Assembly: GCA_027600665.1 (NCBI GenBank)
Contig: JADGJL010000310.1
Coordinates: 1 to 23,327, forward strand
DNA from: Irineochytrium annulatum
Taxonomy: Eukaryota; Chytridiomycota; Chytridiomycetes; Chytridiales; Chytridiaceae
Direction of reading: 5' to 3'
DNA length: 23,327 nucleotides
Position numbers and translations under genes: made by a program. The notes under the pieces are model-generated. The model had not been told where the DNA came from. It worked only from the letters and a program-made list of their open reading frames with translations, and ran no database searches. Positions 1,205-21,500 of the stretch are shown here, piece after piece. The number at the start of each line of letters is the position of its first letter. The stretch's first letter is position 1.

Positions 1205-3903
1205 ATGATGAAGCCCTTCACAAACCTGCGCATCGTGCCCTCGGAGTGGACAGAGGACGGGGTTGCAACCCGGGACGAGAATGAGATTGCGGGTGCGGCG
1301 GATGGCGACGGAGATGGCGTCGAGGTTGGGACGGACTCTGGAGTCGCGATAAGCGATGCGGCGAACGAACACGGCAGGCCGAGGTCCAGCATGGCTTCCG
1401 CGCGTGTGGGCGCGGATGGAATCGCGCGCGATAGGAGGGGGGATGCGCCGTTCAGGATCGAGCTGCACTCCGGCGGGACCGCTATCATAAGGGTGAGTTA
1501 AGCATTTATATGGCTGGCTCGAGCATGACTAATTAAGAATTCTTCAATTCTTGTCCTTCTCCAGGGATTCGTTGAATTCGAGCAGCGAGGTCCCATGCTG
1601 TTGCCGCACATCCACATCGAGTTCTCGGGCGTGTCGAGGGTTTGGTGGGGGGAGATGAAGCATCAGAACGTTGAGCGGCCGCTAGTTTCGCTCAAGGTAT
1701 ATCTCTATGTTTTTGCTCCGTCACCTCGTCACTAACTTATCCCCCTCGCAGTCCATTCTCCTCGCAGAAGGAGAACCTCTGCCGCCACCTGTCCCGTCCA
1801 CAAACCTCATCCGCATCCCGTTCTTTATCCAAGTCAACTCGCCACACCATCCTCGCGGCTTCCCGCTCTCGTTTCGCTCGAAGCACGGCAGCATCTCCTA
1901 CAGACTCCGCGCGACGCTCGTCCACGTCCTGATCATGCCCGACGCGACGTCCTGCGAGGCCGAGGTCGAGGTCGCGGCTCCCTGGGTCGACGCGCGCCCG
2001 CCGCCGGCGGAGGACTTGAGGGCGACGGACGGTGCGGAAGGCGTTGTGAGGGACATGGACGACGTGGCGCCGGACGAGATCGTGCAGAGGCCAAGGGTGC
2101 TCTCGAATCTGCCGTCGACGGGGTATGGGACCGCGAGGAGGGTGTCGTTCTCGGCGCTTGGGAGGAGGCCCGTGCTGAGCGATCTGCTGCCGATGGCGCC
2201 GGACCCGAGAGACGCGTCGCCGGCGCCGTCGTCGTCTTTGGCGTCGTCGCTGCCGGGCTTGGCAGCCGGGGGTTTGCCCGCAGATCCGCCGCCGTCGTTT
2301 GAGGTTGCGGTTGCGACGCCACTCGAGGAGGCGAGAGCTGCAGACATACGGCACGATATAGTGGCAGAGGAGCGGGAGGAGGCTGCGGAGAGGGAAGAGC
2401 CGCCTGCTGCAACAACTATCTCAACCGCGTCGATGGCCCTGGCCGCTGCGCGAAGATACCTGTGGGGAGCGTCCCCGGAGGTCGCATCGCCATTGCCGAC
2501 GAGGAGGGAGGGGAGCAGGCGGAGCTCATTCTGGTTTCTACAGCGAAAGGAAATTGATCAGGACGTAGAGAGACTCGCAACCGCGGTCGGGTCGGCCTCG
2601 AGCTCGCAGGCACCTTTTTCGGAACCCCAAGACGTCGACGTTCCGGCTGTGACACCGGAGCCGCCGGAGGAGTTAACTGCTCATGCCCCGCCAGGACCGG
2701 CGCCCGTTGCTGATTACGTGGACGTTCCGTTTGTTGACGATGAGGTCCCTACGAGCTCGACATCAACGGCCCCATTAAAGCGTCGCATGACGCTCTGGGC
2801 CAAGCAGCACGAGCCGCGGTCAAGCCTTTTCTCCCTCATGTTCGCTCGCAGGTCTTCCATCGGATCCCGATTCCGCCCAGCCGATTACACATTACCCAAC
2901 CTTTCGACACAAACGCCGGTCCACCCACACGCCGTTCGCTCCCAAACCGTCTTCCCAATTCTCCACCACCCCCGCGCGTCCCTAGACACAAACCCCGCAC
3001 GCACCAGCGAGCCACTTCTCTTTCTCCGTCGACCGTCCCTCTCGCACTCGCTCACCCCCGACACAGGCACACCGCCGTCACCCTCACCGTCCTCACTCCA
3101 CTTCTTGCACCCGCACCATCAATTCCGTCCCCAGCGGCCATCATCCCGCGCGTCCGTGGCCTCGACGATCTCAACAACACCGTCTCTCGTAAGTCGTCGG
3201 ATTCGCCGCCAGCCGCTGGCGGAGGACGAGAGCGCGATTGACGATGATTTCGACGACCTGTACGACCTTCGCATCGACGACGAAGACGAAGACCAGCCCG
3301 CGTACGAGAACTTCGACCGCTACCCTTCCGCCGTACCGATCGACATCATCGCTCCAGGCCGCGCCTCCATTTCCTCCTGCCGCTCCTTGCCCGTCAGCGC
3401 CGCCGCCGCTTCAACGCGGACCGATCACCCGCACTTCCGCGTCGTCCTGCCGCGAACCATCGCGTCCCCGTCAACCAGCATCCCGCTTCTGTGCCACATC
3501 GCGGCGCTGCCGCCTAACCGCGTCATCGAGGCACTCGAGGCGAGGCTCGTGGCGGAGGTGGTGTGCGAGGGCGCGGGGAGGGTCCTGAGGGAGGAGAAGG
3601 TGCTGGGGGAGACGACGGTGAAGTGTGAGAGCAGCGCGGAGATGTGGAGGCGGAGGATCGAGGTTGCCGTGCCAGGGGAGGAGGAGTGTGCAGGGTTTGG
3701 GGTTGGTTTTGAGGCGGTAGGCATCCGGATGGGACATTATGTGAGTTTCGGTTGCCTGATTCTGGGTGAGATGCTGTGTTCTGAGCATGCGTTGCGAACA
3801 GGTGAAAGTAGAGCTGGTTTTGAGCCACACGAACGTTCTGGGGATCAAGAGGAAGGAGAGCTACGTGCTGGGCAAAACGTCGATTATCTTGCTGCGGGCG
3901 TGA
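1205..3903 (+). CDS. Arrestin-domain protein (alpha-arrestin-like)
   Basis: The model has four exons: 1205-1492, 1565-1696, 1752-3740 and 3802-3903. All introns are phase 0 with GT-AG ends, giving 836 residues. Residues about 82-205 match an arrestin N-terminal fold: a G-x-V-E-F strand, then IEFSGVSRVWW, then PFFIQV and SFRSKHGSISYRLRATL. A C-terminal arrestin half covers about 700-836 and ends with VELVLSHTNVLGIKRKESY. Between them lies about 500 residues of low-complexity, Ser/Pro/acidic sequence. The start is the first ATG of an ATGATG pair; an upstream in-frame ATG at 1106 would add 33 residues. Fungal alpha-arrestins (ART family) are adaptors linking membrane transporters to ubiquitin ligases. 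No canonical PPxY motif was seen (only QPAY), so Rsp5 recruitment is unsupported. The arrestin fold call is strong; the role is inferred from the family. Confidence 0.85.
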
Positions 3904-4298
3904 GGGTATTTTTGCGGTGGTAACCGTCTAATTTTTTGTTGTTTATCTAATTTCTTAATTGCACTATGCGTTTTGTGAGCAGTCTGCTGTTGCCTTTTGT
4001 TCCTCATCGCTGGTAGCAATTTGCCGGGTCACATCGTTCCCTTTTTCAGCAGCTCAATTCCTTTTCATACCATTTATCATTACCTTTGAATATTGCTCCG
4101 TCGTTTGGCAAGTTCTTTTCCATTCAAATACCTCTTTGACGGCATCAACCTCATTTTAGAAGCTGCCTTTGCTTTTCTTTCGTTGTTGGGGTTATTCAGA
4201 TGAGTTCGGGCAATACGACTTATGGGGCCATGGATTACATTTCCATTCATTAGTCTGACAAGCCGCTTCATTTGTATAACGAGCTAATTACGCTCCAG
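3904..4298. other. 3' flank of the arrestin gene
   Basis: The region is T-rich just after the stop and shows no recognisable gene. It is probably the 3' UTR and terminator region of the arrestin gene. No clear AATAAA was seen close to the stop. Confidence 0.4.
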
Positions 4299-4573
4299 TC
4301 GACTCAAGGTGGTGGCAGGCTGGGAGGATATTCGGCGGGGCGGGTGGCCGCGTCGCCGGTGCTCAAAGCTGAGGAACTGCTGCCATATGTGACGCGTTCG
4401 ACGATTTGCCACGACGAGGAGAGTATTGCACTGTTTCAATCCTCATTGGCGCGGTATTGAATCGGTGTACATGCGAAACCTACGTTCCTCAAGCGCCTCC
4501 GCCCAACATTGCTTCAGCAGCCGTTGGAGGAGTACCTCGCCATGACGCGCCGTTATCCCCCGGCACTGACTTG
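4299..4573 (+). pseudogene. Orphan exon-like block with an in-frame stop
   Basis: One reading frame with GC-rich codon use runs through the block and encodes stretches such as KAEELLPYVTRSTI and LKRLRPTLLQQPLEEYLAM. A TGA at 4458-4460 interrupts it in frame. The block is preceded by a branch-site-like GCTAATT and a CCAG acceptor, and followed by a GTAAGC donor at 4574, so it looks like a single internal exon. No start, neighbouring exons or identifiable family could be found. It may be a relic of a gene disrupted here. A chance open frame remains possible. Confidence 0.3.
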
Positions 4574-5096
4574 GTAAGCAATTTGTCCCAACGTCGCATA
4601 TCCGCCTCGTTTCCAGCAATTATCCCTCAAAGTTTACCTTTGCGTGCGGGTCTATCCGCTGTGCTCGCAATAGCTAAGAGCTAATTGATGGCTAGGTGGT
4701 TCAAAGCCTTTTAAGCAGGATGTAACCATACATAGTCACGATTGCAAAAGGCATTATCACAAGAGCGAGTGAAATATGCCCAACCTTTGCTTTGACACTC
4801 CCGACATTAATTAATTTATTATCTGTCTTTAAATATTCGTTGTTTTGTACCGTAAATGTGATGTGATAGAAGTGGGTGGAGAGGGGAAGACGGACGGGAT
4901 AGTGCTGATTGGGAGCAATTGGGACGAAATGCAAAGAAAAATACAAGAGAATATGTAGAGCTACAGAGTTATTATGTGAACGCAAAAAGGTTAGAAGGGT
5001 AGTGCTAACGACACATACATCAGCAAAAAAAAAGCGATAGCAAGAGCAAGTGCAATATGACAGACGATAGGTGAAAGAAAGCCTCTGTACCTTAAA
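4574..5096. other. AT-rich convergent 3' region
   Basis: No gene is seen here. It separates the plus-strand block at 4299-4573 from the minus-strand coiled-coil gene, and probably contains that gene's 3' UTR. Confidence 0.4.
4815..4820 (-). terminator. Possible polyadenylation signal of the MIT/coiled-coil gene
   Basis: The minus strand reads AATAAA in an AT-rich stretch about 280 bases past the TGA-type end of the gene at 5097. This is the only such hexamer noticed in the flank, so assignment is by position only. Confidence 0.3.
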
Positions 5097-7953
5097 CTAC
5101 TCAATCCCACCGTCCCCGTCAACGAAGGAATAAAACATGCTACCTCCCATCGTCGTTGCCTGGCTTGCCTCCATCCCCTTACCCCCCATCGCACTCCTAT
5201 CCATCCTCTCCTTCCCCCTCACACTACCTCCACCCCGCCTCCCAAGCTGCGACCCCATGACGACCGATCCCGATGACGGCGCTCCTGCTGACCCAAACGA
5301 TCCGGCGGACCCAGACCTTGGCATTGGAATGCCCGGTGCCTCGGCGGACACGACCGAACCCCCGCCCAATGAAGTCGTCGACGTCCCGCTTCGCAGCGAC
5401 GCGCCAGACGATCGACGAGACGTCAGCGGGAACGTCGTCGCGCCGCCGCCAACGCCCTGGTGCGCCGATGTATGCACACCATCTGCCCTCCTACCTGCGC
5501 CGCCTCCGTAATGCTCCTCCTCTACCCTCCCAGCCACGATACCGCCGCCACCGCTCGCGCTCCCCGTCGTACTGCTCGCATCCGAGCTGTATCCTCCCAA
5601 TGTGACCGGCGATCCCGTTGACGCCCTCTCCTGACTCCTGACACCCGAGAGTTGCCCAGCAAGACCACCGGAGTCCGGCACCCCGATTGACGGCGACGCC
5701 GGTATGGACGAGTTCCCCTCGACACCCTCGGCCTCCTTCCGCTCCCGCTTCCGCCGCTGACTCTCCTTCAGCTTCGACCACCGCTCGCGCCACCGCTCGA
5801 TCTCAGCCGCTCGCGACTCGCTCTCAAGGCGGACGTCTTGCAACTCCCGCTCGAGAGATTCGATGCGCGCGGCCAACTCGGCCGTGCCGGCGGAAGGCGT
5901 GTGCGCGCCGCCGGGGAGGGGCGGGGCGGCGCTCATGGAGGAAGAAGGGGAGGTCGAGATGGGACTGCTCTGCTGATTGACGCCCGTCGAGGGCTTCCGG
6001 GTGTAATGAGGCCCAACGGAGCCGCCAAGAGGGTTCGCGGTTTGGGGAGGTGGAAGGTTGTGCAGGCTGGTGACGCCGAAGCGTTTGGCCTGCTTCTGGA
6101 GATCCTGACGGAACTGAATGATGGACGACCTAAGCATCGTGTTCTCCTCAGCCGCCTAATTAATGAAACAGTGTCAGCTTAGCTAACGTAGCAAAGAGGT
6201 ATCGCAAGCATAGCAAGCAAGAGCACGAACCCTCTCCAACAACGCCATTCGCCTCGTCAAGAAATCCACCGTCTGCTTCAACTGCTCGTTCTCGACGTGT
6301 AGCTCCTCAACCGTCTTCTCCCCAACCACCCTCACGGGCCCCTCCCTCGTGATCACGGGGCTTCCCTCCCTCCCTGGCGGCCTCACCGCAACACCGCCGG
6401 CAACCGTCCCTGCTCCGCCAAAAAAGTTCGAGTCAACGCTTAGCGCGCCCGCATCCATCATCGTCGCGACCGGCGCTGGAAGCGCAGCGTCCCGGTCGTG
6501 ATTCGTGATAAACCCGCCCCCGATCGGCGCGTTCGCCGCGCCCACGCCAGCATCATACGACACAACCCTCCCGCCACCCTGATGATGCGGCCCGACTCCG
6601 CCTGCCGCCGCAGCCGCCGCCGCAGCCTCCGCACCGAACGTCGACGCAGCCATGGATGCCTCCCCACCCCCGACTACGAAGTACGAGTTTAGCAGCGCGT
6701 TCGTCCGCAAAGTGTCGGTCATATTGCCCCCCGTAGCGGCTGCCGCTGCCCTGCGTTCCTCCCAGCCCTGGTAGTACGGCATCGTCGCCCTTCCACCATT
6801 GTGCGCGCCCGCCTGTTGATTCGCCACCAGCGGTGCGGTGGCGAAGGCCACGGGGGCGGGCACCGAGATGCGCTGAACCAGGTTCTCGACCACGTCCCAG
6901 AACTTGTTAAAAGGGTCCTCGGGCTCATCCTCGCCCTGCTGCGGGTGCTGCCCACCAAGCCCGGCCGCGAACGACGGCGACAGGTCCTCCGGCCGATCGC
7001 CGAGGACGAGGTATGAGCGGTCGATCGAGTCCGAGGGGTTCCGCAGTGCGGGCCGTATCGTCGGTGGCGCCGAGTTCCGCCCACCCCTCCGCCCCAGTTG
7101 ACCCGACACGTCAAGCGAAATCACGGGCACCGTGGCGGCCTCCCCTCCGTCGTTCGCATACCTGCCCCTGCCCCCTGGAGCGGACGTCATGTGCCGCGGC
7201 GGATCCCGCGAGGTCGTGAACAACACGCTGTCGCCCGACCCTCCAGCGGCCCGCTGCTGCCCGACGAAGAAATTCTGCGACCCGTACGCGGAGGCAGAGA
7301 TCTCCTCAAACGTGTTCGCCTGCGGTGGCGGCGCGGCCGTGGATGCATGCCGTCCAAGGGGGCTGCTGACGCGCGGCGTCTGCACCTCCTGGAAGCTCTC
7401 AATCAGCTTCTGACCTCTCAATGTCGTCTCAGTAGGGTCGCTCATCCTGGGCACCGCCGAGGCCGGATGCGGTTGACCGATGGCGGGAGACCCGGGGACC
7501 CTGGCGCTGGCAGGCGACGCGGCCAGACGGGCCTGGATCCTTCGCTGGAGATCCTTCCCTTGCCTCGTGTGGTTGGAGTAAAGCAGCTTGAGGGTCTTGA
7601 CGGCCTCCGGGTCCGATGTATAGCTGGTGGCGAGGAGGAACTGCTCTGCGGGGTGAAGCTGTCAGTCGTCAGAGGCGGGGACCTGGGAGCTCACCTGCAG
7701 CTCGGAAGTGGGCCTCGACGGCCTTCGGGTACTGGCCCCGCTCGGCGTAGTCTTCGGCCGCCGTTGCAAAGGAGTTGCCCTGCAGTTGGGAGAGCAGTCA
7801 GATCCGGTGGCCAAGGAGCCCCTCACACCCCCGTCACCCGGCCGCCCTCCCCATCCCGACGACTCAGTCCCCAGCATCCCCTCGTCCTCCAACGGCATCC
7901 GGCGGCAACTCTACCTTGTTGACGGCGTCCAGGTTGTTCCCGACGTCAGCCAT
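5097..7953 (-). CDS. MIT-domain and coiled-coil protein, Atg38/NRBF2-like
   Basis: The exons, 5' to 3', are 7953-7915, 7779-7695, 7645-6231 and 6155-5097 (865 residues). Introns have GT-AG ends and restore one frame throughout. Residues 1 to about 85 form a helical hairpin like an MIT domain: GNSFATAAEDYAERGQYPKA, then AEQFLLATSY, then a TLKLLYSNHTRQGKDLQRRI helix. A conserved-looking patch DPFNKFWDVVENLVQRI sits at about 285-301. A coiled coil spans about 475-540 across the last intron, and a second covers about 605-656. The rest is low-complexity Gly/Ser/Ala sequence. An N-terminal MIT domain plus a central coiled coil is the plan of Atg38/NRBF2, the autophagy subunit of the class III PI3-kinase complex, although those are usually much shorter. 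The domains are seen; the autophagy role is inferred. Confidence 0.75.
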
Positions 7954-10764: not shown

Positions 10765-13700
10765 ATGAAGCCCTTCGTCTCCCCCGACGATGGGACGGAG
10801 CCGACGTCCACTTTGAACAATATGACCAGAACGACCTCACGACGCCCTCGCCGCCTTGGCCTCGGAACCGACCTCATCCTTCCCCTGACCCTCATCACCC
10901 TTCTCTTGTCCACCACCGGCAACCTACTTGTACCCGGAGCCCACGCCCGCGATGTGGAAGTGTGCAACAGCTACACCCAAACCCTGCCGGCGGACTTCCT
11001 CTTTCTCATTGACGGCAGCGGGTCCATGTGCCCGTACATCAACACTATCGAACAGAGTCTCCAGAGCTTTATTCAGCAGCTGACGCAGCAGGGAGTGGAT
11101 GCCACGTTCGCCGTCGCGGCGTTCGGAGGCGTGCCGACTCTATTGCAACCATTCTCGGTATGTTTTTGGGGTTGATGAACGGGAATAGAATAGGCGTGGG
11201 AACCCCGGGAGGGTGACGAACGGTGTAGTCGATGGCGGGAGCTGGGTTGAGCTGGACAGCTAGGAGTGGCTGTAGTCTTTTGGCCCAGATTGCTAACAGA
11301 TTATGTGACAACAGGCAAACGGCACATTGACACAGGGCACGATTGGTGCCATTGGATGCACGAGAGGTGGGCAGGAGGCCGGCCTCGAAGTCATCCGTAT
11401 GTCGCTCGCCAACAACTCCGGTTCCGACTTCAATAAAAACTGCGTGAAGCCTTACAACACGCAGGCAGCCTGCGTCCTGAACTGGAGGGCAAACGCAAAA
11501 AAGAACATCATTATTGCCACGGATGAGGACTCTGACTTGCCGACTTTGTCGTAAGTCCGCTTTGATTACCTTGATTCATTGTGACACCACTTATGTTTAA
11601 AATTACCACGCAGGAAATACATGGTCGGTACGCAATCCGCGTCCACAGCCCTCTGCCCGACCCAATACAACTCCCAGGGCACCTTTTGTTCCGAAGCTCA
11701 ATTTGAGCCCCCATTCCAGCCTCGCGTCTTCTGGTCCCCGGGGCGTCAATACTTCCGCAACACCTCCACCCCGCTCACGATCGACAGCTCCTACGTGACC
11801 GAAATCGCGACGACGGCCCAAATCGTGGTTGAGAACGGCGCGCGGGTCTCCATGTTAATCAAGTCCGACTTCAACGCGAATCGAAATGGTCCAATCAGTA
11901 ACTACGACTCCTCGTCCACGTGGTTCAACCAGAACGCGCCGGACAAGTCCGTCACATCCGTCATCCACACGACCATCTACCAGTACGGTGACCCGGCCGT
12001 CCAGTCGGAGGACCCTAATACTTTTGCAAACTTTAACAACACGGCCACGCTGGCGGGGTTGCAGGGGGAGGGGCTAGGGAACTCATTTCAGGCGCAGGTG
12101 CTGGCGAAGGGGGGTTATGTGAGGCTGTTCAGGATACAGGACATCGTGGATAGCGGGCAGTATGTCATCAACAACATCTATCAGGCGATCGCGCAGCAGG
12201 TGCAGAACTGCAGTTACCAGTACGTGCCGGATCCGGTAAGTTGCCCTTTGGCTTTGTAAAATTTCGTTGCGGGCGTGGCTGACGCGTGCGTTCCGGTTTT
12301 TGGTAGACGACGACGACCTCAATCGCGACCTCGACGGCCCTCACGACGTCAACGTCCACGTTCGTTTTCAACAACTTCGCGTCCGCCGTCACCACAACCC
12401 GCGCCACAACTACGACCGTCATCTTCCCGTTCCTCGCCGCAACGACCACAGTTACTACTAGCTCCGTCTACTCGGCACCCGGCTCTGGCACGACGACGAC
12501 GGCTAAATCGTCCACAGTCTCGTCGACGGCGTCGACCGTGAGTCCCGTGTACCTCCCGCCCGCCGGTACAACGACGACCATAACGGTGACGGCGACGGCG
12601 AAGTCATCGTCCGTTAGCAGCGTTTCCGCGACCTCTACGGCTGCCACGTCTTCGATCAGCACCCCGGTGTACTTGACTACAACCACGACGGCGTCGACAA
12701 CGACGGTAAGCCCCTTATTCGTCTTCCCCGCAACTACCACGACGACGACGACAATCGTGGCCTCGACAAGCAAATCCACGACCGTGTCATCTACCGGCTC
12801 GGGTACGACTTCCACGATCACCGTCACCGTTTCAACGACGACCACTAGTGCCGCGGCAATCTACCTACCGGCGCCCACAGCCACAACGACTGCGACGACC
12901 TCGACCGCCCCGGTCGTCTTTTATCCGCAGAGCTCGGCGTCCAGCACCCGTACTTCGACTACGTACATCAGTACACCGGTGGGACAGTATCCTGCAACGA
13001 CTTCGAACACAAGCGCGGCCGCTTGGCCCTATGTTTCACCGTCCGTTGGAACGACCGCGACCAGTACGGCGGCTGTCTATATCGGCGCGTCTCCTAGTTC
13101 GTCTGGTCCAACGACGACGGCGGCGGCTGCTAACTATGGCACAACTGCCGCGGGTGCGAGCAGCAGCACGAGCGCCGGTGCAGGTGTTTATCTGCCAGCG
13201 GGGACGAGTACGGCGTCAACGACCACCACCACGGTCGTGCCCCTGTGGTTTGCGACGGGGACAGCTTCGGGAACTAGCACGACCGCGGCGGCAGGGTCGG
13301 CCACGGGATCTCCTGTATACCTGCCGGCCGGCACGTCAACAAGCACGGCCGCGACTGCGACCGTCACGGTCTTCCTGACCGCCACTGCCTCAATTGCCTC
13401 GACGTCTTCTGTCACGAGTGCGCCTGCATGGTATGGACCTTCTCCGGGTACATCCACGACGACCACGGCCTCGTCTGCCCCTGTATATCTGGCCCCGATT
13501 GCGACGTCCGGCACTACGATGTCAACAGCCTCGTCATCCCCGTCGGTGCCCACCTTCACCGTCACAATCGCAACTTCATCGTCGTCTACGCCGGCTGCTG
13601 TGTTCTGGTGGGGTACTTCTTCCACGGCGTCGTCCTCGACGCCGGCAGCATACCTCCCTTTGAGCACGGGCTCGGCGACGACCACGGCTTCTGCACCCGG

Positions 13701-16700
13701 TTATATGGCTCCGATCGCGACCTCTGATAGCACGTCCTCGGCCGGTGCTCCGACCACCACCACCGATGCTGTCATGTATTTCCCTGGCAATGGCGCACCT
13801 TCGTCCACGGGCTCGTCCGTCGCCTCCTCCGCCACCGTATGGCCGGTATTGTTCGCGACGTCGACGGCCAGCTCGACCGCGAACAATGGCGCTTTTACGG
13901 TCAGCTCGACGGATTCGCAGTCGACCACGGCTGAGACCTCGACCTCGTCCACACCGGCGTTTGTCTACGTCCCGCCGTCCGTGAGCACGACGACGTCGAG
14001 CACGGCAGCTGCCTACTCGCCGTTGATCCCATCGCCGACCGATGGAACGACAGCGGCGGGATCGACAGCCTCTTCCACGGCGGCGGCCACGCCGTTCATC
14101 CCGAACATTTTAACTGTAACGACCTCGACGGATTTGCTGCCAACCTCCGCTCCGACGTCGACTTCATCTTCGCCAGCCTTCATTTACATCCCATCGTCGG
14201 CGACCACGACGACGACAACCTCCGACTTTGCGTATATGCCTATCAGCCCGGTAACCACTGATGCGGCGACGGTTATCTCCACGACCGGGTCGACTGCGCA
14301 GCCCACGCCGTTCATCCCGATCTTCGCTGGGACGACATCGACGGATTCGCAGTCAACCTCCGCTCAAGCGTCCACTTCGTCTTCTCCTGGCTTCGTCTAC
14401 GTCTCACCGTCCGTGACCACAACAACGACAAGCACGGCGGTCGCATACGCGCCGTTGAGCCCGTCTTCTACCGATGCAACGACGATAGCGGAATCAACTG
14501 CATATTCCACGGCGGCGGCCACCCCGTTCATCCCGTACATCTTTGCCACGCCTGGTAAGTGACTTACTTTTTGATTGCTTCCTCTCGTGGTTCCCATGGA
14601 CTAACGCCACGCAGTGACTACAACCACGGCATCGAACTCTGAGAGTGCCTCGACAGTCATTACGACCGCCGCGTCGACCACGACTTTAGGGTGGTGGTCC
14701 AGCGTTCTGGGATACGGTTTATCGACGTCCACGGACTCTGGCAGCGCGACGTCGACTGACAGCCCGGCATCTACGACGATCTTATCGACGACCACTACTG
14801 TGTCGACGGCGTCTGACTCTTCGGCGAGCGAAACGACGACAACTAGCCCTTCGGCCTCTGCACCTACACAGACGACTGCTGCAGCGACTTCGGATACGAG
14901 CGCGACTACGACTACGACTGATATGGTCTATGTTCCCGTGGCTTCGACAACGACTAAGGCTTCTGTGACGACGGTATTCAGCTCGTACATTTACGCCCCG
15001 GCTGGTGAGTTAATTGGTCAAGATTCACTTATTGGTTAGTTTACTGATGTCGCGTTGTAGTTACCACCACGGAGTCTGCGACGGAGAGCACGTCGACCGT
15101 TACTGTAACGGTAACGGCGGCATCGGCGTCCACGACGGCGGGCAGCTGGTGGTCGAGCGTGTTGGGCTACGTTGCGCCGACGACGACCGATGTCAGCACC
15201 ACAAGCACGACGGACTCTGAGCCCTCAACTACGACGGCTTCAGAGTCCGCTTCGACGTCTACGAGCAGCACCGCGGACTCGGCGACGACCTCATCGACGT
15301 CTACGAGCAGCACCACGGACTCGGCGACGATCTCATCGACTTCAGAGTCCCTTTCTTCGACGAGTAGCACGACGGACTCGGCGACGACCACGTCGACTTC
15401 GGTGTCCGCCTCGACGTCGACTAGCAGCACAACGGACTCGGCGACGACCACGTCCATTTCAGTGTCCTCCTCTGCGTCCGCGAGCAGCACGACGGACTCT
15501 GAGTCGTCCACGACCGATACGCCGTTCACGCCTCTCAACCTCGCTACTGCCGGTACGTCCTCCATTGTCCTTATCTCTTTCTTGGCACATCACTAACGCC
15601 TCGCCCTACAGTCACCACGAGCGCGACCTCGACAGAATCGCTATCTTCTTCGATCACGGAGACCCCGACGACCATAGGATACGTGGGCCTCGCTTCTAGC
15701 ATCTGGAGTTACCTCGCATCGTCGACCACCGCTTCTTCCACCTCAAGCAGTACTTTGACTGATTCCAGCACGTCATCTATGGCGGCTGCGTCTCCCTCAT
15801 CGACCACGGACAGCGATACCTCCTCGATGTCGACAGATACCTCCGTCACCACGACGCCAACCACCGAGGCTAGCGTATCCAGCACCGCCGTGACCTCAAC
15901 CGTGACGCTAACAGTCACAACAGACTCGCCGTCAACAACGACCGGCAGCTGGTGGTCAAGCGTCTTAGGCTACGTGTCTTCTCTAACAACGGATTCCGGC
16001 GCCACGACGAGTTCGATATCGATCGCAGCGACCAGCTCCTCGTCTACGACGCAGGCTACGTTGTACATGCCGCTAGTCACCAGCACCAGCACGCAGGCGG
16101 CGACAACCACCGCCAACTTCGTCGCATATCTCCCGAGCGAAGCGCCGATGACCACTAGTGTCACCGCTTCATCCACCGCGGCGGGTTCGACGAGCACGAG
16201 CACCGGTACTTTGGTCGTCTACCTGCCGGTTGTGCCAACGACGACGTCTACCCAAATGTCGCCCATAGACGCCGTCACGTCGAGCTCCACGGACGTGCAG
16301 TCTACCACCGCACGGACGACCGGCTACGTCTACATGTCGCCGTCCGCGACAACAACTGCGACAAGCACAGTCGTCCCGTACCTGCCCTACAGCGCGTCCT
16401 CTGCAACGACCGGAGCGACTAGGTCCACCAGTGCGCCGTCGACGGATGCGACTGACATTGCGACAGAGACGTCGTTTATCCCGGACAACTTTGCCACGGC
16501 TGGTGCCACGACTGGTAAGTCAATTTTTATCGAAAAACTGGAGCCATCTTGCTAACGGGTAAGTGCAGCTGCAGAGACGGAGTCTGCGACGGAGAGCTCC
16601 TCGACCGTCACGGTCACGGTAACGACGACGGCCTTGCCCACGACGTCGGGCCGCTGGTGGTCAAGTGTGTTGGGCTACATCTCGGCAACGGGATCAAGCG

Positions 16701-17923
16701 ATGCGACAACCTTGGCGTCGACCCTCACGCCGACTGGTAGCGCGTACTCGACATCGGCCTCGGTTTCCTCGCCCGATAAAACCTCTACAGGCGCGCAGAC
16801 GACGAGCTCGGTTTTGACCACGAGCACTGTCAGGGAGGTTCCCTTCTTGCCCGCAGTAACCGGAACGTCGTCTACGCTCGTTACCGTGGCCCCTGCTGGT
16901 ACGCCTTGTCATTTTTTTTTGTCCTTTTTCGTCACTAGTTCTCTTGTGCTCACGGTTTGACTATTAGGTGCTCCTGCGACATCTATGGATACCGATTTGT
17001 CCCCGGCTTCCTCTACCGTGGTGCCGACGGCCTCCATTTCCGCAGTCCCGACGTTGTCCGATACCGCGACCGCGACGGCATCCGGATACGTGAACCTTGT
17101 GTCCAGCATTTGGAGCTATTTCGCCTCCTCCACCACCTCGAGCACCGCGACGGCCACGGTAACGTCAAAGATAGCAGATGCTATCTCCACCACTTCCTCG
17201 GTCCCCTCCACGACTGCAAACGTCCCGCTCACATCAGCTGGCTCGTCCGAAAACGGTGACGGTACCTCGGACGCGACGACCGATGCTACGACCGTTGTCT
17301 CCACTTCAACGTCCCCTGCCCTCGTTCTCGTCTCGAACCAAACACCCGCCGCTACGCTCCCGTACACGCTCGTCGGTACCTCCTCGGCAACGCTGACCGA
17401 CCCGCTCAACAACTTTGCGGGCACGGACGCCCAGATATCCGTCACTGGTACGCCGTCGTCATCCACTGACTTTACGGGCGCGACCACCGACGCCGAGTCC
17501 AACAGCTTCACGCAAACGACGTTCAACCCTACCGACGCCGGCTCGCAGCACACCACCGTGACCCTCGCGGGCGCCGCTAATGCCACCACCTCCCTTCCAT
17601 CCACCATTGTCATGTCGGCCCCACCCACCGCCACAGCCGGCGATAACGGCAGCAGTAGTCCGCCAATCTCCCCGCCCGTCACGATTGGCCTCTCTGTCGC
17701 TGGCGGCGTCGTGGCCGTCGGCGCTGCAGGCGCGCTGGCGTTTATGTACAAGGCCGGCGGAACTGGCGCGAGCGCCATGGGTGTCCACGCGACGTCGGAC
17801 CCTATGTTCCAGATGGCGAAGGGGAACCCATTGTATGAGGGCCCCGGCGGCGTGCATGAGAACCCGCTGTATGAGCCCGGGGGAGGGGATGCGGGAGGAG
17901 CATGGGGTGAGCAGATGGTCTAA
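10765..17923 (+). CDS. Integrin-beta/Sib-like VWA adhesion receptor with mucin-like stalk
   Basis: The nine exons are 10765-11157, 11315-11550, 11614-12235, 12307-14554, 14615-15004, 15061-15552, 15612-16514, 16569-16898 and 16968-17923, giving 2189 residues. A start at 10822 would give a tighter signal peptide (RRPRR, a LILPLTLITLLL core, AHA cleavage site). A VWA domain follows from about residue 75, with MIDAS DGSGS at 83-87 and TDEDSD at 200-205. All eight cysteines seen lie before residue 418. Residues about 418-2106 are a Ser/Thr/Ala-rich, mucin-like stalk with repeated VYLP and WWSSVLGY islands. One membrane span (about 2109-2131) has GxxxA/SxxxG packing motifs. The 58-residue tail carries NPLYE at 2158 and 2170, so the tyrosines are 12 apart, as in integrin beta tails. 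Integrins and Dictyostelium Sib proteins use such motifs to bind talin. The domains are seen; adhesion and talin binding are inferred. Confidence 0.85.
13894..14541 (+). repeat. Three-copy 216-bp (72-residue) tandem repeat in the stalk
   Basis: The copies are 13894-14109, 14110-14325 and 14326-14541, each exactly 216 bases and in frame (residues 947-1162). Each runs from a STD(S/L) stretch through a hydrophobic FVYVPPS/FIYIPSS/FVYVSPS island and an AY-x-P island to TPFIP. A diverged fourth copy, with QSTTARTTGYVYMSPS and ending SFIPDNFATAG, closes exon 7 at about 16283-16505. The perfect length conservation points to recent duplication by unequal exchange. Confidence 0.85.
14692..17119 (+). 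repeat. Dispersed WWSSVLGY and SSIWSY stalk modules
   Basis: The octapeptide WWSSVLGY is encoded once in each of exons 5-8, at 14692-14715, 15147-15170, 15950-15973 and 16655-16678. A related GYVxLxSSIWSY(L/F)ASSTT occurs at 15677 (exon 7) and 17084 (exon 9). Upstream of three WW motifs is a beta-branched STVTVTVT or STVTLTVT run. These are almost the only tryptophans in the stalk. Codons differ between copies, so the peptide rather than the DNA is what has been kept. Confidence 0.8.
15252..15500 (+). repeat. Degenerate TDSAT / STSTSST minisatellite in exon 6
   Basis: Five copies of a STSTSST(T/A)DSAT-like unit follow one another at spacings of 14, 19, 20 and 20 residues, encoded mostly by ACG, TCG and AGC codons. 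This is the most homogeneous Ser/Thr stretch of the stalk and a candidate for copy-number variation between strains. Confidence 0.65.
17678..17746 (+). other. Transmembrane segment of the VWA receptor
   Basis: This codes for about 23 uncharged residues, TIGLSVAGGVVAVGAAGALAF in the core, followed by YK on the cytoplasmic side. Small residues repeat at four-residue spacing (GxxxA and SxxxG pairs), the kind of face used for helix packing in integrin and Sib membrane spans. Confidence 0.8.
17825..17875 (+). other. Tandem NPLYE motifs of the cytoplasmic tail
   Basis: AAC-CCA-TTG-TAT-GAG at 17825-17839 and AAC-CCG-CTG-TAT-GAG at 17861-17875 encode two NPLYE motifs with different synonymous codons, so they were not created by a very recent slip. 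The 12-residue spacing equals that of the two NPxY motifs in integrin beta-1 and beta-3 tails. NPxY motifs bind PTB/FERM-type domains such as that of talin. Confidence 0.85.
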
Positions 17924-18586: not shown

Positions 18587-21500
18587 TTACGTTTCCGACC
18601 ACTTGATATACAGCTGCATGCCCATGTCTGTAAACAGCTCTCCTGCAATCTCTTTGCACCCTACATGTCCTGAGTACTTCCCAATGATTCCGTGATAGAG
18701 AGCTTTCATGACTCTGAATGTGTCGAGTTCGCGTCCTCGTCGAGATTTAAGCTTCAACTTCAGCAGACGGACAGCTGCAGCATTTCTTCCCCTAAGAAAC
18801 AGGAGGAGTGCCTGAAGGCCGCAAACGCCCCAGTACGCTGCCACGGCCCTTTGGAGGCTCTTCGCTTTGCCTATCATTCTCCGCAACATTTTTTGGAAGT
18901 TTACCGTTTCCTGGGCGTTCCAGCTCACCGGCTTATCACAGACGACACCCGAGCGAGGAGGATCAACCAGAAGCACGACTAATGTTGGCATTATGACAAC
19001 GAAATCCAAGTTGTGAGGGCCTCTTGATTCAATGTCTAGCTTCTCTACAGACTCGGTCCAGCACAGCAAGGCTCCCCGAAAATCACCCATAATCGCTTTC
19101 GCCCAGGCCCTGTAGAAATAGCAATGCCACACATTGACATTGGCTAGTGTGTGAACCGCGCCGTACGTCTCAAAGTACAGCAGGCGCTTCTCAACTTCGG
19201 CTCGTTCGCCAACGTACAGCGCCGCTCGTAGGTAGAATCCTGTCGCCATATAGGATGCTATTTGATTCTCACGAAGTAGCGGACTCTGCTGGAAGATCGG
19301 GAATACCTGTTTTTCGACATACTGAATATCACCGTACCAGGAGGCTACCCCAGTCGCCATCATCAACGCCATCACAGCAGTGCCCAGGTCCCCGCGTGCC
19401 TGACAGAACTGCGCGGTCTTCTCCCAGAGCAAACGGTCTTTCGGGGTGTCCGCTGTTAAACTGCAGTTCGCTGCATACCCCCAGATGACTTTAGGGTCGT
19501 CCGATTCAGTGCGGCTTGCAACCTTCAGAAACATTCCATGAAAACTCGGCGCATACTATTGCGAGAAGTAAGCAACTCTTGAGAAGCCAGACCATCCTAA
19601 TTAAGAATTAGCAAAACAAGGGAACAAACTTTTACATATATATACTCACAAGACGGTCTCATCCTTGTTGTACGTCAATAAAAGATTCAAATGCTGGAAC
19701 ATCAGCATTTCAATTTCCAAAAGAGAGACGCCCTGTCCCGAGAAAAGCAGTCGACGAAATGAATGTTAATCATATGAATTAACTCATACACCTCTGCATC
19801 GGATACTTCAGACACTTGCGTAGTGCTGGCCGCCTTTAACAGCTTTAAGGGCCGTCTGCCTCCTTTTGTTATTGCCCAAAGCCAGGCCGTTCGCATCTGC
19901 AAGCGGCGTACAGCCGCCTTCATCGCCTTCGAGCTTTGCGGCCAGCGGGCTCTGTAAAATAATTCTAGAGCACCTCTTGCTGTGTCTTTCTCCTTCGGAA
20001 ACACACTCATGACGCAATAGCCAACGCAGAGATGTGAAAGCCAACGCGCTCGCCGCAACGGCGAAGCGCCACTAGCTGCATGGTGATTTTCATTTTGAAT
20101 GTCGGACGTAAATTGAACGAGAGATTCGAGCATTCGCACGCCCTCCAGGCATTGATAGTTCCTGATTAATTGGCACCTGCGAACCAATGAGATACCACCA
20201 TAACGCATGGATTCCCAGTACCCTATTTTCTCCCTGTATTCGATGATTTTGTCCACATCACCAGATCTCGAATAGTGAAACTCGATAGAGGGCAGGAGTT
20301 GTGCCTTATTATCATTATTTACCAAGCCCTCCAGCAGTTCTGCCACGTAGCGGTTCATCCCGATGCGCTCCTCGAATGACAAGCAGTCATAAATTGCAGT
20401 CAGGATTCTGATATGCCGGAAGGACACATTGACGCTGAGGTGCTCGCCCAAAGGCTCGCTCTCTCCATCGGAGATCTCCTTTGGATACAGTAGAAACTTA
20501 TACTTGTCATTTCTTCGCAAAAATTCTAACGTCTCGTTCTCTGACATCTGGAGACTTAGAATATCGAGGACATCAGAAAGAATGAAGTACTGGAGCTCAT
20601 TTTTAGTTTGCCATAATAATATGCAACGCGCTATACCTGTCCTAAAATCGATGCAGCTTTTAGTATGCTTTGGAACGTCGGATCAAGGCGATCATACTGG
20701 AACAAAACTGCTGAACTCAGGTCCCCAAGGAGGTCGTTGGGGTTCACATTACGATCGACAAAGGTGAGTTGGTGATTGTCATCAACCTTCAAGGTTGTCC
20801 CGATCTTCTCGACGACAACTTCGATCGTCATTTGAAGATGGAGTGGACTCCCATTGGTTTTGGCAAAAATTGCTAAGTCTCCGTCAGCTTATCAGCTCAT
20901 AAGTACAGCTACTCAAACCTCGATACAGTTGCTCATCGATTGACTTCATTACAGTGGTCAAAGTCCCCAATTTGAATTCCTTTGGATGTTTGTTAGATGG
21001 TACGGGTTGTATCGCAGACTTACAATCATTTTGAGTGCATCATTTTCCGTCAACCCGGACAGAGAAATGTGATTTGTATCTGGAAGATTGGCAACGAGGT
21101 TCAGTAGTTTGTTTGCAGAGTCTGCGATTGGCCGGGTGAGGATTTGCAAGAAGATCTACGACACCATCAAAAATGGTTTCAGGCTTCCTTACGCTACCTT
21201 TGGACAAAATCGTGATAGAAGCATAATAATCTCCAGTGTATTTGCATCCAGCCACTGCGCGTCGTCGATTTTTGAGCAAAGCTCGATGCATAAGTTGTTT
21301 TACCTTGCGATAAGCACACTGGGATCGTAACCAACACAGCTTCGTCCATGAGGAAATTTGCCAGCGATGACTTGCCCAGACCACTGCCTGCTTCAATCAC
21401 AATCACTGTCCTAGTCGCCATGCTCTGCCAATTGACAAACTTCGATTTGATCAAGGCCCTCTCATTCTCATACCCAAATACAGCAGCGACCTGGCTCTTG

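Follow-up and report, generated by a model that had tools for sequence, protein, structure and literature searches.

The stretch of DNA considered here, hereafter the window, comprises positions 1 to 23,327 of contig JADGJL010000310.1 of the chytrid Irineochytrium annulatum (assembly GCA_027600665.1), and carries a gene for a large receptor-like protein whose plan recalls those of the integrin beta chains and of the Sib proteins of Dictyostelium. The gene occupies positions 10765..17923 of the plus strand and consists of nine exons (10765-11157, 11315-11550, 11614-12235, 12307-14554, 14615-15004, 15061-15552, 15612-16514, 16569-16898 and 16968-17923), separated by eight introns of 54-157 nt, all of the GT-AG type. 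Once spliced, it reads as a single open frame of 2,189 amino acids, from the ATG at 10765 to the stop codon at 17921-17923; no unspliced frame covering the gene figures in the list of open reading frames of the window. An earlier note on this DNA had claimed that one polypeptide combines a VWA domain with its metal-ion-dependent adhesion site (MIDAS), a stalk of about 1700 residues and one small-residue-rich membrane span, and the spliced frame bears this out.

The protein begins with a probable signal sequence (residues ~20-61, positions 10822..10947), made of a hydrophobic core with its hydropathy peak at residue 38 and ending in GAHA. The start codon is uncertain, since Met20 (10822), which lies just ahead of this hydrophobic stretch, would also do as an alternative to Met1 (10765). 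The predicted secreted head follows, a VWA block of residues 62-417 encoded by exons 1-3 (10948..12235) that contains the MIDAS motif DGSGS at 11011..11025. Exons 4-9 encode a mucin-like stalk, defined by its composition (12307..17683; 1,689 residues between the VWA block and the span, with 27% Thr and 22% Ser), and all eight cysteines of the protein lie before it, the last at residue 409, so that a Ser/Thr stalk does stand here in place of a Cys-rich one, as had been proposed. A single membrane span (residues 2111-2131, 17684..17746; 48% Gly/Ala/Ser) leads to a cytoplasmic tail of 58 residues (17747..17920) with a membrane-proximal NPLYE at 17825..17839 and a membrane-distal one at 17861..17875. 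Their NPLY cores start at positions 2158 and 2170 of the protein, which confirms the distance of exactly 12 residues read in the earlier note, and no other NPxY motif occurs in the chain.

Three protein searches, with candidates limited by length and one of them scoring the 7,998 candidates that shared most words, returned 14 fungal-type relatives; members may thus have been missed, and the searches were not aimed by name at Spizellomyces, Batrachochytrium or Allomyces. The relatives come from Phlyctochytrium, Rhizophlyctis, Synchytrium (three proteins), Polychytrium, Dinochytrium and Irineochytrium itself (a paralogue), together with six further proteins whose position in the tree described below suggests that they are fungal as well. 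Nine of the 14 have, at their C-terminal end, an NP[LM][YF] pair with a spacing of 11 or 12 residues, preceded by a membrane span. Moreover, the distance from the span to the first motif is 25-28 residues in all ten pair-bearing proteins (that of the window and the nine relatives). Given this recurrence, the spacing and the constant distance from the span, the pair goes beyond chance, and the conservation on which the earlier note had made its proposal depend is there. Among the five relatives without the pair, P0001 and P0011 are marked as partial by NCBI, P0012 is a model that departs from the frame of the stalk, P0013 terminates with stalk sequence plus a basic stretch, and P0002 is built differently. 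The latter, a metagenome protein of 1,609 aa, has three tandem VWA blocks and an ice-binding-like adhesive domain. As for the spans, a small-xxx-small pattern is present in 10/10, and GxxxG in two of the ten and not in that of the window.

The strongest single result of the analysis comes from the comparison with the 2,003-residue Dinochytrium protein P0028. Across the VWA block 211 of 350 aligned positions are identical (60%), and across the span plus tail 57 of 83 (69%), whereas the stalk reaches 440/1456 (30%), ten shuffles of the Dinochytrium stalk giving 28.4-32.0%. Both ends are thus under selection, while the stalk retains its length and make-up only, and this contrast between conserved ends and drifting stalk argues for the VWA exons and the tail being parts of the same protein. 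Across the family the length of the stalk is itself very variable, and P0008 and P0009 have stalks of no more than about 70-80 residues.

The stalk of the window protein has further particularities. Exons 5-8 (14615-16898) are each of phase 1-1 and have lengths of 390, 492, 903 and 330 nt, all multiples of three, so that each could be skipped in frame to give a shorter stalk. In addition, the segment from residue 1193 to residue 1922 (exons 5-9) contains four copies of WWSSVLGY and two of SSIWSY, a repetition suggestive of exon duplication.

Contig C849 carries a paralogue of the gene (~1,740-5,716), with a VWA block 48-51% identical by piece followed by a Ser/Thr stalk; none of the plausible frames there showed an NPxY. 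Its public model is P0012 (HK101_010770), four pieces of which are 98.75-100% identical to the contig. Four other VWA proteins of the genome (L001-L004) have no NPxY in open reading frames of at least 150 residues at loci of 2.8-3.5 kb, and a weak tail match on C567 (E 0.1) was discarded, its frames of that length likewise showing no NPxY.

With regard to the head, the Pfam families VWA_2 (E 1.2e-4) and VWA (E 3.7e-4) match the block of the window below their curated cut-offs, and the homologues span 88-100% of it. In an alignment of 21 members (12 fungal-type and 9 bacterial-type rows), 19 rows retain the Asp of DxSxS (two gaps); at the position of the first Ser, 13 rows have Ser and seven have Thr (one gap), and 20 rows retain the second Ser (one gap). 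The remaining MIDAS-type residues, the Glu of GGQEAG and the Asp of ATDEDSD, both encoded by exon 2, are found in all 21. The complete DxSxS MIDAS of the earlier note is therefore present as DGSGS, with the refinement that the third MIDAS-type position is Glu and not Thr; a Glu at this site is what we take to be the integrin-beta type of MIDAS. No relative of the block was found in the PDB by single-sequence search; a comparison of a predicted fold may point to integrin beta.

When a profile built from the family tails is run against the PDB, its four best matches are the tails of integrin beta chains, all weak (best E 0.0013), and the spacing of 12 residues between the NPxY motifs is also that of the beta-7 and beta-1D rows among those matches. 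The tail of the window used as a single query found no integrin in the PDB.

The earlier note had advised looking for a talin in the same genome. In the 26.9-Mb assembly containing the window contig, a search with Talin_middle revealed one complete talin gene (C821:23501-33400, minus strand), in which FERM_M, an IRS-type PTB domain (E 1.1e-26, on a joined piece), Talin_middle, R4, VBS2, IBS2B, a rod segment and I/LWEQ are recognised. Compared with talin-1, the F2-F3 piece is identical at 84 of 148 positions and F3, the PTB domain, at 63 of 100, with the KRWA stretch unchanged; as a whole, the gene is much like animal talin. Vinculin is also present (E 4.2e-28). The PTB domain of talin is the only IRS-type match above the cut-off, a second one, on C142, being below it. 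No PID-type PTB domain was found in the genome, in a search whose controls gave nothing either. Besides talin, there is a second FERM gene on C48, after which, without a change of strand, come a proline-rich stretch and Sel1-like repeats that, judged by eye, perhaps belong to a separate gene, and a second I/LWEQ gene on C195.

The same genome has eight FG-GAP matches on four contigs: C317 (four), C1026 (two), C872 (one) and C547 (one). C872 and C547 were rejected as integrin alpha candidates, both encoding rhamnogalacturonan lyases; they lie in long uninterrupted frames and are perhaps, at a guess, bacterial contigs in the assembly. C1026 encodes a protein with FG-GAP and FG-GAP_3 and no other match above the cut-off. 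The propeller piece of C317 (minus strand) has 55 PDB matches up to E 0.01, all of them integrin alpha (best E 1e-9), and a zinc-dependent phospholipase C piece is found just upstream on the same strand. Such an arrangement is presumably that of GPI-phospholipase D, and C317 is probably a GPI-phospholipase-D-like gene; given the adjoining phospholipase piece, we do not claim it as an integrin alpha chain.

These likenesses do not amount to membership of a known family. The VWA block of the window has no match to Pfam Integrin_beta (PF00362) or to vWA_SIBA-E (PF24909) at E 10. Within the alignment, Integrin_beta finds two of the 21 members, at no better than E 0.13 and below the cut-off, and vWA_SIBA-E finds one at E 0.016, also below it, the tandem-VWA protein P0002 reaching 26.1 bits against a cut-off of 27. 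Neither family matched anywhere in the genome, the controls of these searches being silent too. Membership of integrin beta or Sib is rejected on this Pfam evidence. What stands of the earlier "integrin-beta/Sib-like" label is the plan and the probable mechanism; the protein is placed in neither family by Pfam.

With the integrin beta chains of metazoans and Capsaspora the protein shares a VWA head with what we take to be their Glu-type MIDAS, a single span, a tail whose two NPxY motifs lie 12 residues from each other, and the company of talin and vinculin in the genome. Unlike them, it has no Integrin_beta match above the cut-off and a Ser/Thr stalk instead of PSI, hybrid or EGF-like Cys-rich legs, none of which were seen, all eight cysteines being at or before residue 409 and no search having been aimed at PSI or hybrid domains over the stalk; nor is an alpha chain established. 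Dictyostelium SibA-SibE, compared here by description only, are likewise type I proteins with an extracellular VWA domain, a small-residue-rich span, two NPXY motifs and a link to talin, according to PMC9197732 and PMC9453864. Sib proteins differ in having a Cys-rich domain, bacterial-type R1-R4 repeats and a GxxxG span, where the chytrid protein has a Ser/Thr stalk, no GxxxG in the span of the window and no vWA_SIBA-E match.

Outside fungi, the sequences closest to the VWA block appear to come from bacteria: they are the secreted VWA proteins P0014-P0026, 26-31% identical to the window over most of the block. P0014-P0027, other than P0018, are taken as bacterial from their PEP-CTERM-type ends (present in eight of the 21 aligned rows) and from their kinship. 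These bacterial VWA proteins and the chytrid receptors have in common the Glu and the TDEDSD-type motifs; no NPxY pair occurs in P0014-P0027. Furthermore, two short peptide patterns run against a collection of bacterial and archaeal genomes matched 64 stretches, of which 11 loci (L040-L050) were confirmed, in Verrucomicrobiota, Proteobacteria (including Nitrosomonas), Nitrospira, Planctomycetota and one further bacterium. Together with P0014-P0026, they give the impression of a sparse family of secreted bacterial VWA proteins. In a tree of 38 blocks, which includes eight of the 11 loci and no integrin or Sib rows (L048, L049, L050 and P0027 were left out), the 17 fungal-type and 21 bacterial rows fall on opposite sides of a branch with support 100/98. 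This tree does not settle the direction of a transfer or common descent.

The earlier note had left the choice between a retained ancestral receptor and convergence open. Without being settled, the evidence leans to convergence or a composite origin, given the apparently bacterial nearest kin of the head outside fungi. We tentatively propose, at a little under even chances, that an integrin-like receptor evolved, or was assembled, within the chytrids by the joining of a VWA head with bacterial kin to an integrin-beta-type double-NPxY tail, and that this receptor would anchor the talin and vinculin kept after the loss of integrin. The rival account of its origin, compatible with an integrin-like way of working, is that the protein descends, much changed, from the ancestral integrin beta without any independent invention. 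The Glu-type MIDAS, the profile of the tail, the fold comparison and the retention of talin and vinculin would all agree with such a descent; set against it are the Pfam results, the apparently bacterial nearest relatives of the head and the lack of Cys-rich legs, and we consider it unlikely.

As regards function, we regard it as likely, by analogy, that the protein is a single-chain adhesion and force-coupling receptor of chytrids, working like integrin beta or Dictyostelium SibA. A metal ion at the MIDAS would mediate the binding of a surface ligand by the VWA head; the flexible Ser/Thr stalk, probably O-mannosylated, would hold this head outside the cell and, in its long form, beyond the wall or coat; and the small-residue-rich helix would cross the membrane. 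Inside the cell, the F3/PTB domain of the organism's own talin may bind the first NPLYE, and the talin rod together with vinculin would couple the receptor to actin. The receptor would most likely serve either to attach zoospores and cysts or to link plasma membrane to wall during growth; the shortest stalks (P0008, P0009) might fit zoospores, which have no wall, and the longest might fit a stage with a wall. This integrin-style mechanism is proposed on the model of SibA. In that receptor the proximal NPXY binds talin A (PMC9197732), and when SibA is absent talin is not under tension (PMC12686525).

Two other functions have to be weighed against that of a force-coupling receptor. The protein could be a receptor for endocytic cargo or recycling, in which the NPLYE pair would serve as a clathrin-adaptor signal in the style of the LDL receptor and the ligand would be taken up without force coupling. 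NPxY is also an endocytic signal in animals, and the tail is short, with no further motif recognised in it by eye or by Pfam. This reading nevertheless finds no PID-type PTB protein in the genome to serve it (bearing in mind the silent controls), and the only IRS-type match above the cut-off is that of talin. The doubled motif, moreover, keeps the integrin-type spacing of 11-12 residues, which would be needless for a single endocytic signal, and we therefore hold an endocytic receptor to be decidedly unlikely.

Equally doubtful is a sensor of wall stress, with the stalk acting as a spring in the wall, the tail signalling to Rho and the head binding only wall polymers. Yeast Wsc1 and Mid2 share with the chytrid protein the plan of a long Ser/Thr stalk and one membrane span, and differ from it in being without a VWA head and an NPxY pair. 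In PMC6685044 such sensors are put forward as the functional counterparts of integrins in yeast, with a link to actin through Sla1/Sla2 rather than a true talin. In chytrids the tail is conserved around the NPxY pair and the genome has a true talin, and stalks of ~70-80 residues, such as those of P0008 and P0009, would be short for crossing a wall.

Finally, the gene model could be an artefact in which the VWA exons have been wrongly linked to the tail exon of a different gene, an error to which a middle part of low complexity and a model resting on genomic sequence might lend themselves. This is highly improbable in view of the one frame running through eight ordinary introns, of the predicted proteins from Dinochytrium, Synchytrium, Polychytrium and a metagenome in which VWA block and tail likewise stand on a single chain, and of the separate NCBI model of Dinochytrium P0028, which likewise joins a long-stalk VWA protein to such a tail.

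Six other open reading frames of the window were compared with Pfam, and the best E was only 0.042 (HPS6, at 18590-19534), followed by 0.089 for CENP-F_leu_zip (5100-6137); a frame of 738 residues on the plus strand (1707-3923) has a weak match to Arrestin_N only (E 0.21, 1707-3920). Rfam has no match at the gathering score within the window, and the folding of the tail-exon DNA is ordinary (z 0.44).

No report of this chytrid family was found in the literature searched, in which the primary work on Sib proteins and chytrids is incompletely covered, so that an earlier mention is possible; the accessible parts of PMC12686525, PMC5042518, PMC10846614, PMC5461030, PMC9197732, PMC6685044, PMC6023273 and PMC9453864 do not describe it. 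It has been pointed out that BLAST misses receptors of the Sib type and that domain plans should also be used (PMC9453864). Furthermore, basal fungi are described in PMC5042518 as keeping the scaffolding proteins and lacking integrin, with room left for a functional homologue still to be identified.

The chytrid family is a concrete candidate for this missing receptor that would tie the fungal surface to actin, being present in several chytrid genera, conserved at its two ends and accompanied by the partner gene in the same genome. It bears on the relation between talin force coupling and integrins, a subject raised in PMC12686525, as well as on the question of whether integrin-like receptors arose more than once. 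If the proposal is true, chytrids would have a receptor of their own that is the functional homologue of integrin sought among basal fungi, adding one more solution to those of the integrins and the Sib proteins.

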